From: Gammaproteobacteria bacterium
GTDB taxonomy: Bacteria; Pseudomonadota; Gammaproteobacteria; Thiohalomonadales; Thiohalomonadaceae
Direction: 5' to 3'
Length of the DNA: 60,772 nt
Assembly (NCBI GenBank): GCA_026196575.1
Contig: JAPHSX010000048.1
Span: forward strand, 1-60,772
Position 1 is the stretch's first letter, and each line of letters starts with the position of its first letter. Of this stretch, positions 15,415-19,283 are shown one piece after another. A model generated the notes under the pieces. That model made no database searches and was not told the DNA's origin. It was given only the letters and a program-made list of their open reading frames with translations. The translations under genes and the position numbers were made by a program.

Positions 15415-16044
15415 ATGTCAGAAACAAATCAAAGTAAAATTGCACAACGCTTTCGCGGTTTCCTGCCGGTGGTGGTCGATGTGGAGACCGGCGGCTTCAA
15501 CGCCCAGACCGACGCCCTGCTGGAGATCGCCGCCGTGACCCTGCGCATGGACGAGGATGGTCGCCTGCGCCGCAGCCAGACCGTCTCCTGCCATGTCGAG
15601 CCCTTTCCCGGCGCCAACCTGGAGAAGCGCGCCCTAGAGTTCACCGGCATCGACCCCTTCAACCCCTTTCGCATGGCAAAAAGGGAGGCGGAGGCGCTGG
15701 AGCACATTTTTGCCCCCATCCGCGAGGAAGTAAAGGCTCAAGGTTGCACCCGTGCCATTCTGGTGGGGCACAACCCCTTCTTCGACCTGGGATTTCTGAA
15801 TGCCGCAGTGGCACGCACCGGCAACAAGAAGAGCCCCTTCCACAGCTTCAGCAGCTTCGATACCGCCACCCTCGGTGGCCTCGCCTACGGCCAGACGGTG
15901 CTGGCCAAGGCGTGCGCCGCGGCGGGCATCGAGTTTGACGGCGGACAGGCCCACTCGGCCATCTACGACACCGAACGCACCGCCGATCTCTTCTGTACCA
16001 TCGTCAACCGCTGGCGCGAGCTGGGCGGCTGTCCGTTGCTCTAA
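15415..16044 (+). CDS. rnt: Ribonuclease T
   Basis: RNase T trims 3' ends of tRNA and other stable RNAs as a DEDDh exonuclease dimer. The 209-residue protein shows D22 and E24 (VDVETGGFN), the middle aspartate in [15 protein letters not shown], and the final His/Asp pair in [16 protein letters not shown]. The basic residues near the N-terminus and the [12 protein letters not shown] block match enteric RNase T. Length is close to that of the E. coli enzyme. Its stop is only 5 nt from the stop of the convergent cytochrome gene. Confidence 0.95.
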
Positions 16045-16049
16045 TCCCC

Positions 16050-16604
16050 TCAATCCTCCCAGCGTCCAATCCCCGGTATGCGAATCTCACGCTCGGCGTA
16101 GGAGCCCTGCTCGGCACGGGTATGGCAGGCGATACAGTTGCTGAAGCTGCCAATCTGCTCGTGTTTAAGCAGCCGTGCCGGCACCTCATCATGCTTGCTG
16201 CGAAAATAGCGCACCTCGGTGATACGTAGCGGCGTGTCCCGTCCAATGGATTGCATAAACTTGGCCGAACGCCGCCCCGCAACGCGATCAGCGGCATTGG
16301 TCACCAGATAGGCCTCAATCGCCTGGCGATCGTCCGCCGCCAGCTCGGCGCTGTCCCCGAAGTGGTCGGCCAACCCGCCCATCAGCTGCCGCCATGAGCG
16401 GGCGGGGAGAAAGCCGGGCTGGAAGGCAAAGTGACAGCTGCCACACTCGCTCTGGTAGAGGGCAAACTCCACCGGCATTACATCCGGGGCGCGGCGACCA
16501 CCCCTCTTATCGTCATCATCATCGGCCAGCACCACACCGCCCAGCACGACCGTACCCAGCGCGATAGCGGCCAGGGCCAGCAGGGAAAACCGTAGCTTAT
16601 TCAT
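16050..16604 (-). CDS. Dihaem cytochrome c (DHC-like)
   Basis: A secreted 184-residue dihaem cytochrome. There is a signal segment (about 5-27), an acidic/basic spacer (DDDDDKRGGRR), and two haem sites CGSCH (C54, C57, H58) and CIACH (C157, C160, H161). The segment FQPGFLPARSWRQLMGGLADHF after the first haem and TPLRITEVRYFRSKHDEVP before the second match the dihaem cytochrome c family found next to SHP. An in-frame GTG lies at 16613, but the ATG at 16604 has GAGGTGAG at proper spacing. It is the last gene of a four-gene cytochrome set and probably passes electrons to SHP. Confidence 0.9.
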   Translation of the reverse strand: MNKLRFSLLALAAIALGTVVLGGVVLADDDDDKRGGRRAPDVMPVEFALYQSECGSCHFAFQPGFLPARSWRQLMGGLADHFGDSAELAADDRQAIEAYLVTNAADRVAGRRSAKFMQSIGRDTPLRITEVRYFRSKHDEVPARLLKHEQIGSFSNCIACHTRAEQGSYAEREIRIPGIGRWED

Positions 16605-16638
16605 CTCTCTCACCTCGTTCAGTCATTACAATCTGTCG

Positions 16639-17055
16639 TTACAGTTGACGCAGATAGCTGAGAAAGTCCCCCTTCTCCTGCGCCGTACACTCCCGCTCCA
16701 GGGTCCACTTGCAGTTACGCTTGAACCACTTCTCAATCTTTGCCGCATCGCCAAACCGCTCGGGGTTGATGGAGGGGGCCATCGGCTCGATCGGCTTGCC
16801 GGTCTTGGCGTGCTTGCCACTCACCCGCGCATTGTCGCCATGGCAACTGGTGCAACGGCGCCCCTTGCCATCCTCGGAGGCGGTAAACTCCCTGAACCAC
16901 ATCTCCTTGCCCCGTTCGGCGCTGAAGTTGGCGGCCCCTTCGGCCTGGTAGGCAGCCAGCCGCTCGTCGATGGTGTCGGCGCCCACCTGTGGGGCGACGA
17001 TAGCTGATAGCACCGCCAGGGCGGTGCCCGTTAGTATCCTGATCGCTCGTCTCAT
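16639..17055 (-). CDS. SHP-like cytochrome c (DUF1924)
   Basis: SHP is an oxygen- and nitric-oxide-binding class I-like cytochrome first studied in Rhodobacter sphaeroides; its physiological role is unsettled. The 138-residue product has a signal peptide (about 1-26), one haem motif CTSCH (C68, C71, H72) and the C-terminal segment FKRNCKWTLEREC. In that segment N114 is the probable distal haem ligand by analogy with the Asn ligand of SHP, and C115/C123 could form the neighbouring disulfide. The ATG at 17055 follows GAGGAGAG; the frame is open upstream but unsupported. Flanked by dihaem and b-type cytochrome genes, as in known SHP operons. Confidence 0.88.
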   Translation of the reverse strand: MRRAIRILTGTALAVLSAIVAPQVGADTIDERLAAYQAEGAANFSAERGKEMWFREFTASEDGKGRRCTSCHGDNARVSGKHAKTGKPIEPMAPSINPERFGDAAKIEKWFKRNCKWTLERECTAQEKGDFLSYLRQL

Positions 17056-17074
17056 TACTCTCTCCTCAACAAAA

Positions 17075-18190
17075 CTACCGGGGGAGGCGCATCGCGCCAT
17101 TCATAAAGCCACCCTGCTCGGCATCGCGGTGGCAGGCGGCGCAGTTGAGCTGCCCCCGTACCTTGTCGTGCCGCCAGACCGCCTCGCCAAGTTCGGCGTG
17201 GGCCTGTTTCCAATATCCGGTTTCGGTGATACGCAGTGGCGTCTCGCCCACATCAAGTGAGCGCAGGGTGCGCCAGGAGAGCTCGCGCACCACCTGTTCG
17301 GCACTGTTGGCGCGGGCATGGGCGAGCAGCGTCGCCACCTCCTCCTCGCCCAGCCCCAGCTCCTCATCGAAGTGATCCTGCTGTGTGGCGAACATCTGCT
17401 CCCAGCTGCGCTGCGGCAACAGGCTGGGGTGGTAGGCAAGGTGACACTCGCCACAGCTCTGCTGCCACAACGCCGACTGCGACAGCGACGGCGCGGGGAA
17501 GGGGTAGTAGGGCTGCTCCTCGCTGGCGCCCAGATGGGGCCATAGATAGCTGGCAGCAAAGAGGATTATCACCAGCAGCATGATGAGGGCCGGCAGCGGG
17601 TAGTTGCGCCCCGACACCGCCACACCAGCGCCCGCCTCGCCACGCTTGTTGCCACTGACCATCGCCAGCGGCAGGCTCTCGCGCTGCAGCAGACTCTCCA
17701 GCGCCACCCCGCTCAGATGCAATCCGACCATCCCCAACAGGGCCCAGGCGAGCCCCTCATGAAGACGGTGGAAGGCAACCCCCTGGGCAATGGAGAGGGT
17801 ACCGGCCAGCGGGCCGAACCCCTCTTCGCCCCCCAGTACCGCGATACCGGAGAGACCAAGCAGGCCCACCAGGGCGAGCAACAGCAGCACCGCCCAGCCG
17901 CCGGCCGGATTGTGGCCGAGGTGACGGTGACGCCGTGGGGTGAAGAGGGTACGCAGGTGGGCCGCCAGCGCGGCCGGGCCCCTAACAAACTGGGTAAAAC
18001 GGGCGTAACGCCCGCCGACCACCCCCCACACCAGGCGAAACCCCAACAGCCCCAGTGCGCTGTAACCGCTGAAGAGGTGCCACTCGGTATAGCGGGCGTC
18101 ATCGCCCGTCACCCAGGCGACGGTGCAGGCGGCGGCGAAGAGCCAGTGAAACATCCGTGTCGGCAGATCCCATACGCGGATCAGTGTCAC
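17075..18190 (-). CDS. Cytochrome b561-type membrane domain fused to a dihaem cytochrome c
   Basis: A 371-residue fusion. Residues 1-180 form a four-helix b561/Ni-hydrogenase-type cytochrome b (VWDLPTRMFHWLFAAACTVAW; LGHNPAGGWAVLLLLAL; FHRLHEGLAWALLGMVGLH; LAMVSGNKR), with paired histidines for b haems. A further helix (about 198-217) exports the C-terminal domain, which repeats the dihaem cytochrome c layout: CGECH (C246, C249, H250), PSLLPQRSWEQMFATQQDHF, TPLRITETGYW and CAACH (C350, C353, H354). The tail is homologous to the separate dihaem gene at 16050-16604. It starts 1 nt after the upstream b561 gene ends and is followed by SHP. A membrane quinol-to-periplasm electron path is the natural inference. 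Confidence 0.9.
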   Translation of the reverse strand: MTLIRVWDLPTRMFHWLFAAACTVAWVTGDDARYTEWHLFSGYSALGLLGFRLVWGVVGGRYARFTQFVRGPAALAAHLRTLFTPRRHRHLGHNPAGGWAVLLLLALVGLLGLSGIAVLGGEEGFGPLAGTLSIAQGVAFHRLHEGLAWALLGMVGLHLSGVALESLLQRESLPLAMVSGNKRGEAGAGVAVSGRNYPLPALIMLLVIILFAASYLWPHLGASEEQPYYPFPAPSLSQSALWQQSCGECHLAYHPSLLPQRSWEQMFATQQDHFDEELGLGEEEVATLLAHARANSAEQVVRELSWRTLRSLDVGETPLRITETGYWKQAHAELGEAVWRHDKVRGQLNCAACHRDAEQGGFMNGAMRLPR

Positions 18191-18191
18191 C

Positions 18192-18818
18192 TTACAGCTC
18201 CCGGCGCTTCTTCCCGGTCACCATGGCACGGGGCAGGTTCTCGTTGTGCGCCAGCGAGCTCACCACCACGCCGGCGATATGCAGCACCACCAGCAGCAGG
18301 GTGAAGTTGGCGAAGAACTCGTGGATCTCCTCCCACACGCCCCCCTCCTTGTGACCCTCGCCCCCGTGCTCATCCTCATCATCATCGGCCCGTGCCATGG
18401 CGACGGGGGCAAGATTGAGCTCAATCCGGGCAAAGGGACCGGCATTCTCCTCCAGCGCGTAGAGCTGCATGCCGCTCAGGGTGGTGGCAGAGAGTGACAA
18501 CAACAGCGCCAGCACCATCGCCCCACCGGCCGGGTTGTGGCCGATATAGCGTTTGGCGCGCAGGGCGACCATATCCTTGAGATAGGCGATGATGGTGGCG
18601 TGGCTAAAGAGAAAGTCGCTGAAACGGGCGTGTTGCGGGCCGACAAAGCCCCACACCAGCCGGAAGGCGATAAGGGCGGCGACGGCATAACCGGCCCAGA
18701 CGTGGAGGTTCTGCCACTCATCCTCAGTGACATAGGCAATGGTAAAGGCCGCCACCAGCGACCAGTGAAAGAGCCGCAGCAGCGGATCCCAGACCTTGAT
18801 TTCAGTTTCGCTATTCAT
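18192..18818 (-). CDS. Cytochrome b561-type membrane protein
   Basis: A 208-residue four-helix cytochrome b. It begins VWDPLLRLFHWSLVAAFTIAY, followed by the HVWAGYAVAALIAFRLVWG helix with its histidine, GHNPAGGAMVLALLLSLS, a loop rich in Asp/Glu/His/Gly (DDDEDEHGGEGHKEGG, about 145-160) and a last helix with VVLHIAGVVVSS, ending AMVTGKK. The His/acidic loop could bind metal and is not usual for the family. The ATG at 18818 has AAGGTG in front; an in-frame ATG at 18836 is possible. It is the first gene of the cytochrome operon and paralogous to the N-terminal half of the next gene. Confidence 0.88.
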   Translation of the reverse strand: MNSETEIKVWDPLLRLFHWSLVAAFTIAYVTEDEWQNLHVWAGYAVAALIAFRLVWGFVGPQHARFSDFLFSHATIIAYLKDMVALRAKRYIGHNPAGGAMVLALLLSLSATTLSGMQLYALEENAGPFARIELNLAPVAMARADDDEDEHGGEGHKEGGVWEEIHEFFANFTLLLVVLHIAGVVVSSLAHNENLPRAMVTGKKRREL

Positions 18819-18903
18819 CGCCATCACCTTTTGCATTGAGGGTATGGCGATGTTATAGCGGAGAAAGCTGAAGCCCTCCTTAACAGACGGTACGACAGGC
18901 GAC

Positions 18904-18950: not shown

Positions 18951-19283
18951 TCAGCCGGCGCTCTCCTCCTTGCCCGCGGCGGCCTGCAGCACGTCGCCAA
19001 GCTCACCCTTTTGATGCATCTCCATCAGGATATCGTGGCCGCCGATGAGCTCGCCGTTGACGTAGATTTGCGGAAAGGTGGGCCAATTCTGGTAGCGCGG
19101 CAGGTTCTCGAAGATCTCCGGATCGGCCAGGACATTGACGTAGGCAAACTCGACGCCGTAGGACTGCAACGCCTGGGAGGCACGGCTGGAGTAGCCGCAC
19201 ATCGGCATCTGCGGGGTACCCTTCATGTAGATCACGATAGGGTTGCTCTTTACCTGCTGGTCGATACGCTCTAGTACATCCAT
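18951..19283 (-). CDS. grxD: Monothiol glutaredoxin (Grx4 type)
   Basis: Grx4 proteins bind and hand on [2Fe-2S] clusters with glutathione and BolA partners. The 110-residue product shows KGTPQMPMCGYS with active cysteine C29, then the TFPQIYVNGELIGGHDIL block with the TFP cis-proline motif and glutathione-binding GG. The usual CGFS site reads CGYS here (Y31). A good ribosome site (GAGGTAAGAG) precedes the ATG. The BolA-family gene ibaG elsewhere in the window (48250-48504) encodes a likely partner. Confidence 0.95.
   Translation of the reverse strand: MDVLERIDQQVKSNPIVIYMKGTPQMPMCGYSSRASQALQSYGVEFAYVNVLADPEIFENLPRYQNWPTFPQIYVNGELIGGHDILMEMHQKGELGDVLQAAAGKEESAG

Follow-up and report, generated by a model that had tools for sequence, protein, structure and literature searches.

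Why would a cluster built around a single sphaeroides haem protein (SHP) hold two membrane cytochromes b and two dihaem modules? A preliminary description of a gammaproteobacterial stretch of 60,772 nucleotides (hereafter, the window) drew attention to such a cluster, in which a b561-dihaem cytochrome c fusion is accompanied by a separate dihaem cytochrome and a second b561, and Pfam matches bear out this content (Table 1). SHP has been known for decades, and an agreed cellular role is still missing from the literature; oxygenase and NO dioxygenase are candidate roles that have been cited (Meyer, Kyndt and Cusanovich, 2010; PMC2909971). The novelty implied for the fusion did not hold, as it was already named the CytB/mDHC chimera in that paper, for Rhodobacter sphaeroides and others, six species in 2010. 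The same paper gives the gene order in Rhodobacteraceae (CytB/mDHC, SHP, sDHC) and an electron path from quinol via CytB, mDHC and sDHC to SHP. Since chimera, order and route are all described there, the architecture of the fusion and the mechanism proposed for it are already known and have been rediscovered here. Thus, the observation is confirmed, and its interpretation is broadly right but known. What is added is the four-gene form with two b561 proteins that are not sisters, the frequency of the fusion and, within the groups sampled, evidence that favors a single origin of the fused dihaem domain. The less usual point is that a separate membrane cytochrome b561 is kept alongside the fusion.

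The four-gene run

The four genes form a compact run on one strand, in the order stand-alone b561, fusion, SHP and soluble dihaem cytochrome c (sDHC). With gaps of 1, about 19 and about 25-34 nt between them, a single transcript is likely. The frame of sDHC is opened by a GTG at 16613 (16050-16613), the ATG at 16604 being the likelier start.

Table 1. Genes of the SHP cluster and flanking open reading frames, in window coordinates.
Feature	Position	Strand	Basis
Glutaredoxin-like ORF	18951..19283	minus	judged by eye
Stand-alone cytochrome b561 (CytB), 208 aa	18192..18818	minus	PF01292, E 1.4e-25 (Pfam)
CytB/mDHC chimera (b561-DHC fusion), 371 aa	17075..18190	minus	PF01292 + PF09626 (Pfam)
SHP (sphaeroides haem protein; monohaem c)	16639..17055	minus	PF09086, E 3e-41 (Pfam)
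Soluble dihaem cytochrome c (sDHC), signal peptide predicted	16050..16604	minus	PF09626, E 2.4e-41 (Pfam)
Exonuclease-like ORF	15415..16044	plus	judged by eye

The top PDB match of the SHP is 1dw0 (2.1e-22), the R. sphaeroides protein, whose WLGRNC...C segment aligns with WFKRNC...C in the window. The Asn that forms the sixth ligand is retained, with a Cys pair nearby and a Trp four residues before, which makes this SHP one of the Asn-ligand type; these are the features named for the O2-binding SHP of R. sphaeroides (PMC2909971). The sDHC matches 2fw5 in the PDB (1.6e-32). Its mature part starts, just past the predicted signal peptide, with an acidic run (ADDDDDKRGG) that resembles a loop of the stand-alone b561 discussed below.

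None of the two-component regulators SK1, SK2 and SK3 directly adjoins the four-gene run. They are found beside the SHP operon in the majority of species, not in all, and their absence is compatible with membership of this operon class, because the R. sphaeroides operon is also without them (PMC2909971). When the fusion was used as query against the genome of the window, one remote b561 was found outside the cluster, and no further dihaem-domain matches. Across the entire window, the FNR-type site TTGAT-N4-ATCAA has 29 two-mismatch matches vs. 10 expected; one of them, at 18814-18827, lies at the start codon of the stand-alone b561 and was given no weight.

Among known systems, the R. sphaeroides operon contains the same fusion, in the same order as the fusion-SHP-sDHC part of the window, with an Asn-type SHP and without regulator genes alongside, but the window adds a stand-alone b561 gene upstream and belongs to a different lineage (PMC2909971). 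Other published chimera operons have the same two domains fused within an SHP operon, but, when compared by their description, SHP precedes CytB in four of them (PMC2909971). SHP operons without a fusion also occur in the window's own family (e.g., L091, L092, L097, L098, and L100). These have a stand-alone b561 directly 5' of SHP and sDHC, and their CytB groups with the stand-alone b561 of the window, whereas the window has the fusion between CytB and SHP. As to dihaem content, one dihaem cytochrome had been taken as usual for SHP operons, and the published range is one or two (PMC2909971). A second, stand-alone b561 beside the fusion was not encountered in that paper's text, and no description of the four-gene form was found in an open-access collection that lacks most subscription papers.

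The fusion protein and its frequency

Whether the fusion results from a sequencing error could be judged at 17540-17600, where a missed stop had been considered. This region codes for a fifth membrane helix (residues 198-220), which leads into the dihaem domain. The reading frame is without internal stop, and an alignment of 26 fusions, i.e., a subset of all those found that comprises the window protein and 25 from other loci with 35-63% identity to it, is continuous through the junction. With an intact frame and 25 other fusions aligning across the junction, a sequencing error was rejected.

Pfam assigns residues 6-180 of the fusion to PF01292 (Ni_hydr_CYTB, E 2.5e-22) and residues 242-362 to PF09626 (DHC, E 2.6e-31). 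The fused dihaem domain repeats the layout of its free neighbor, as had been noticed, with 36% identity over residues 238-370, and the fused and free b domains are 44% identical over residues 2-131. Invariant in all 26 aligned fusions are the b-haem ligands H15, H38, H144, and H158, the CxxCH motifs at 246-250 and 350-354, and the distal histidines H273 and H331 of the dihaem domain. The AlphaFold model (mean pLDDT 86.3, pTM 0.84) contains five helices of membrane length (9-28, 32-58, 95-121, 134-169, and 198-220). The dihaem domain is predicted to be located on the periplasmic face, a sidedness that we infer, and to be tethered there by the fifth helix, which may derive from the signal anchor of a free DHC ancestor. 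In Foldseek, the dihaem part of the model is found on R. sphaeroides DHC (2fw5, E 1.7e-6). The b part gives weak matches to formate dehydrogenase N gamma (1kqf_C, E 0.039) and hydrogenase-1 cytochrome b (6g94_B, E 0.21), with which it shares the four-helix cytochrome b fold. Formate dehydrogenase N gamma and the Ni-Fe hydrogenase cytochrome b are separate dehydrogenase subunits and are not known to carry a dihaem c domain. A Foldseek search with the predicted fold found no solved relative of the whole fusion.

In an even draw of the window's class, SHP scored above the Pfam cut-off in 42 of 274 genomes. An intact full-length fusion was found at E values up to 1e-30 in 12 of the 274, one of them being the window's genome, and SHP is above the cut-off in every one of these 12. 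Thus, the fusion recurs regularly but as a minority form, and the possibility that it is the usual form across all SHP operons, which the preliminary description had named as a refutation, was rejected. It is nevertheless far commoner than the 2010 list of six species would suggest (PMC2909971). The frequency counts rest only on this draw and on a search of the window's family (20 genomes); the 80 loci also used in this work are the best 80 of 450 retrieved by querying with the fusion, and the share of fusions among them is biased.

Some variants were observed as well. In one genome of the class draw (G141), the fusion is broken over two frames. At another locus (L176, in G052), b561 and DHC are encoded by two separate neighboring ORFs, which match the fusion end to end, and SHP is found on a different contig; possibly, this is an unfused or re-split form. 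In a draw from the phylum, the DHC family was present in 109 of 299 genomes, and the fusion was present in 18 of 20 fetched stretches, which had been chosen for a long open frame. At six of these 18 loci (L196-L201), SHP is absent within the 3.5-5 kb fetched, and the fusion may therefore also serve another partner.

Relationships of the b561 and dihaem modules

The two b modules of the cluster had been described as paralogous. Paralogous they are, but neither is a recent duplicate of the other: constraining them to be sisters lowered the log-likelihood by 145.8 (AU p 0.00024, on 51 of 130 b561 rows, partly drawn at random), and a recent tandem duplication within the operon was rejected. In the tree of 130 rows, the stand-alone b561 belongs to a starred set of 38, of which 7 lie beside a fusion, 12 come from other SHP operons and 19 from loci without SHP; given the latter, it could serve another process. 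If two rows from beside fusions are set aside, it lies nearest to CytB proteins of SHP operons, mostly of the same family and including operons without a fusion. As the stand-alone b561 is closest to the CytB of ordinary CytB-SHP-sDHC operons, the cluster combines two known operon forms.

A phylogeny of the dihaem domains, which had been suggested as a check, grouped all 45 fused domains in a single branch (SH-aLRT 96; 93 in an earlier tree with 20 fused domains), from which all 81 free domains are separate. The 45 domains come from loci that are gamma- and alphaproteobacterial and magnetococcal, as judged by record title or kinship, and the published epsilon (Wolinella, Campylobacter, and Arcobacter) and Rhodoferax fusions are not among the rows of these trees. 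In b561 trees without constraint, the fused domains need 3 to 4 changes (4 on 130 rows), and one clade of fused b561 domains is compatible with the data (p 0.49, 51 rows). Multiple origins of the fusion are unsupported by the dihaem tree, the b561 tree being less clear. Judged from the dihaem tree, the fused dihaem domain looks like it had a single origin in the groups sampled, which argues against repeated fusion and runs counter to the several origins suggested for the chimera in 2010 (PMC2909971). In the simplest scenario, a CytB-SHP-sDHC operon gained an old fusion gene; it is just as possible that the ancestral operon had four genes and that losses followed. Fragments below 140 (b561) or 90 residues (DHC) and exact duplicates were excluded from these comparisons, as were copies of the window (L001-L004) and of other loci (L086, L094-L096) from the earlier sets, L176-L183 from the 45-domain tree, and L005, with its very long branch, from the b561 tree and the AU tests.

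Electron route and alternative readings

With a probability of roughly 0.7, the cluster belongs to the known SHP electron-transfer operons, in which the fusion relays quinol electrons to SHP and the stand-alone b561 is a second entry. The fusion itself would most likely act as a quinol:periplasmic cytochrome reductase, giving electrons to sDHC and, from there, to SHP. In a route built on the domains, gene order, conserved ligands, model helices, and relationships computed here, membrane quinol would reduce the b561 part of the fusion, and the electron would cross two b haems, from His15/His158 on the cytoplasmic side to His38/His144 on the periplasmic side, a pairing suggested by helix order. 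It would then pass on to both c haems in the tethered dihaem domain at the periplasmic face, and free sDHC would take it onward to SHP, whose haem, once reduced, could bind O2 or NO. The original reading of the cluster as a quinol-to-periplasm relay is sound, and it agrees with the published proposal (PMC2909971). The stand-alone b561, in which the alignment shows all four haem-ligand histidines to be retained, would be a second quinol entry point, as in ordinary CytB-SHP-sDHC operons, and would have to pass electrons straight to the free carrier. An operon with both entry points is a natural test of whether dihaem tethering matters. A more specific proposal, which we regard as doubtful, is that the two non-sister b561 proteins, one with a tethered dihaem carrier and the other lacking it but having an acidic/His loop that may bind metal, feed the same SHP with switchable input (e.g., by metal load), and that the fusion had a single origin and then spread, as a cassette, into CytB-SHP-sDHC operons.

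Alternatively, the two b561 proteins might form a heterodimer, in which the stand-alone one stabilizes or regulates the fusion and the tethered dihaem domain is the sole exit. Their genes are only 1 nt apart, with the stand-alone b561 first, and within the window's family the fusion occurs in 5 of 20 genomes, each of which also has a stand-alone b561: directly upstream in three (the window, G008, and G015), whilst in G007 and G002 the stand-alone b561 ends one contig and the fusion starts another. In ten other genomes of the family, b561 adjoins SHP, and the fusion is absent in the loci seen. Beyond the family search, the pair was encountered at two Sedimenticola-labelled loci (L009, L011) and in G086; G141 has a stand-alone b561 beside its broken fusion, and at L014 a second b561 lies on the opposite strand. 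In the class draw, however, a stand-alone b561 accompanies only 2 of the 12 intact fusions, one of the other ten (G197) having only about 0.5 kb upstream, too short to judge. The fusion thus seems capable of working alone, and a heterodimer is unlikely.

The stand-alone b561 might also share only a transcript with its neighbors and serve another, metal-related redox process. Its predicted periplasmic TM3-TM4 loop of 43 residues carries an acidic/His-rich stretch, ADDDEDEHGGEGHKEGG, with a possible role in metal binding or docking. Runs of at least four D, E, or H residues are found in 4 of 6 b561 proteins beside a fusion and in 12 of 32 from loci without SHP, vs. 1 of 46 from the remaining SHP operons and none of 20 fused domains. 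Moreover, heavy-metal transport genes adjoin some SHP operons (PMC2909971), and at one locus (L084, 1578-4643 and 4983-5597) an acidic-loop b561 related to the stand-alone one adjoins an ORF that, by eye, resembles an RND metal-efflux pump. However, CytB proteins from fusion-free SHP operons of the same family are among the nearest relatives of the stand-alone b561, and a separate metal-related role appears improbable. A sensor-kinase-like ORF was also seen near the acidic-loop b561 of L084.

A clue of a different kind comes from Allochromatium vinosum, in which Alvin_0020 to 0025 were strongly induced on pyrite vs. sulfide, with a log2FC of 7.10 for the DUF1924 gene (PMC11267869). By annotation, these genes look like the published SHP cluster of A. 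vinosum. The term "sphaeroides heme" is absent from the main text of that paper, and the link between DUF1924 and SHP thus points to an apparent SHP cluster, unnamed there, among the top-induced genes of the pyrite transcriptome (PMC11267869). This induction might suggest a reversed flow, from a periplasmic donor via the cluster to the quinone pool, but it says nothing on direction and may reflect iron stress, and such a flow is very improbable, as SHP must be reduced to bind O2 and as the direction reported in vitro, for R. sphaeroides, is from the dihaem cytochrome to SHP (PMC2909971).
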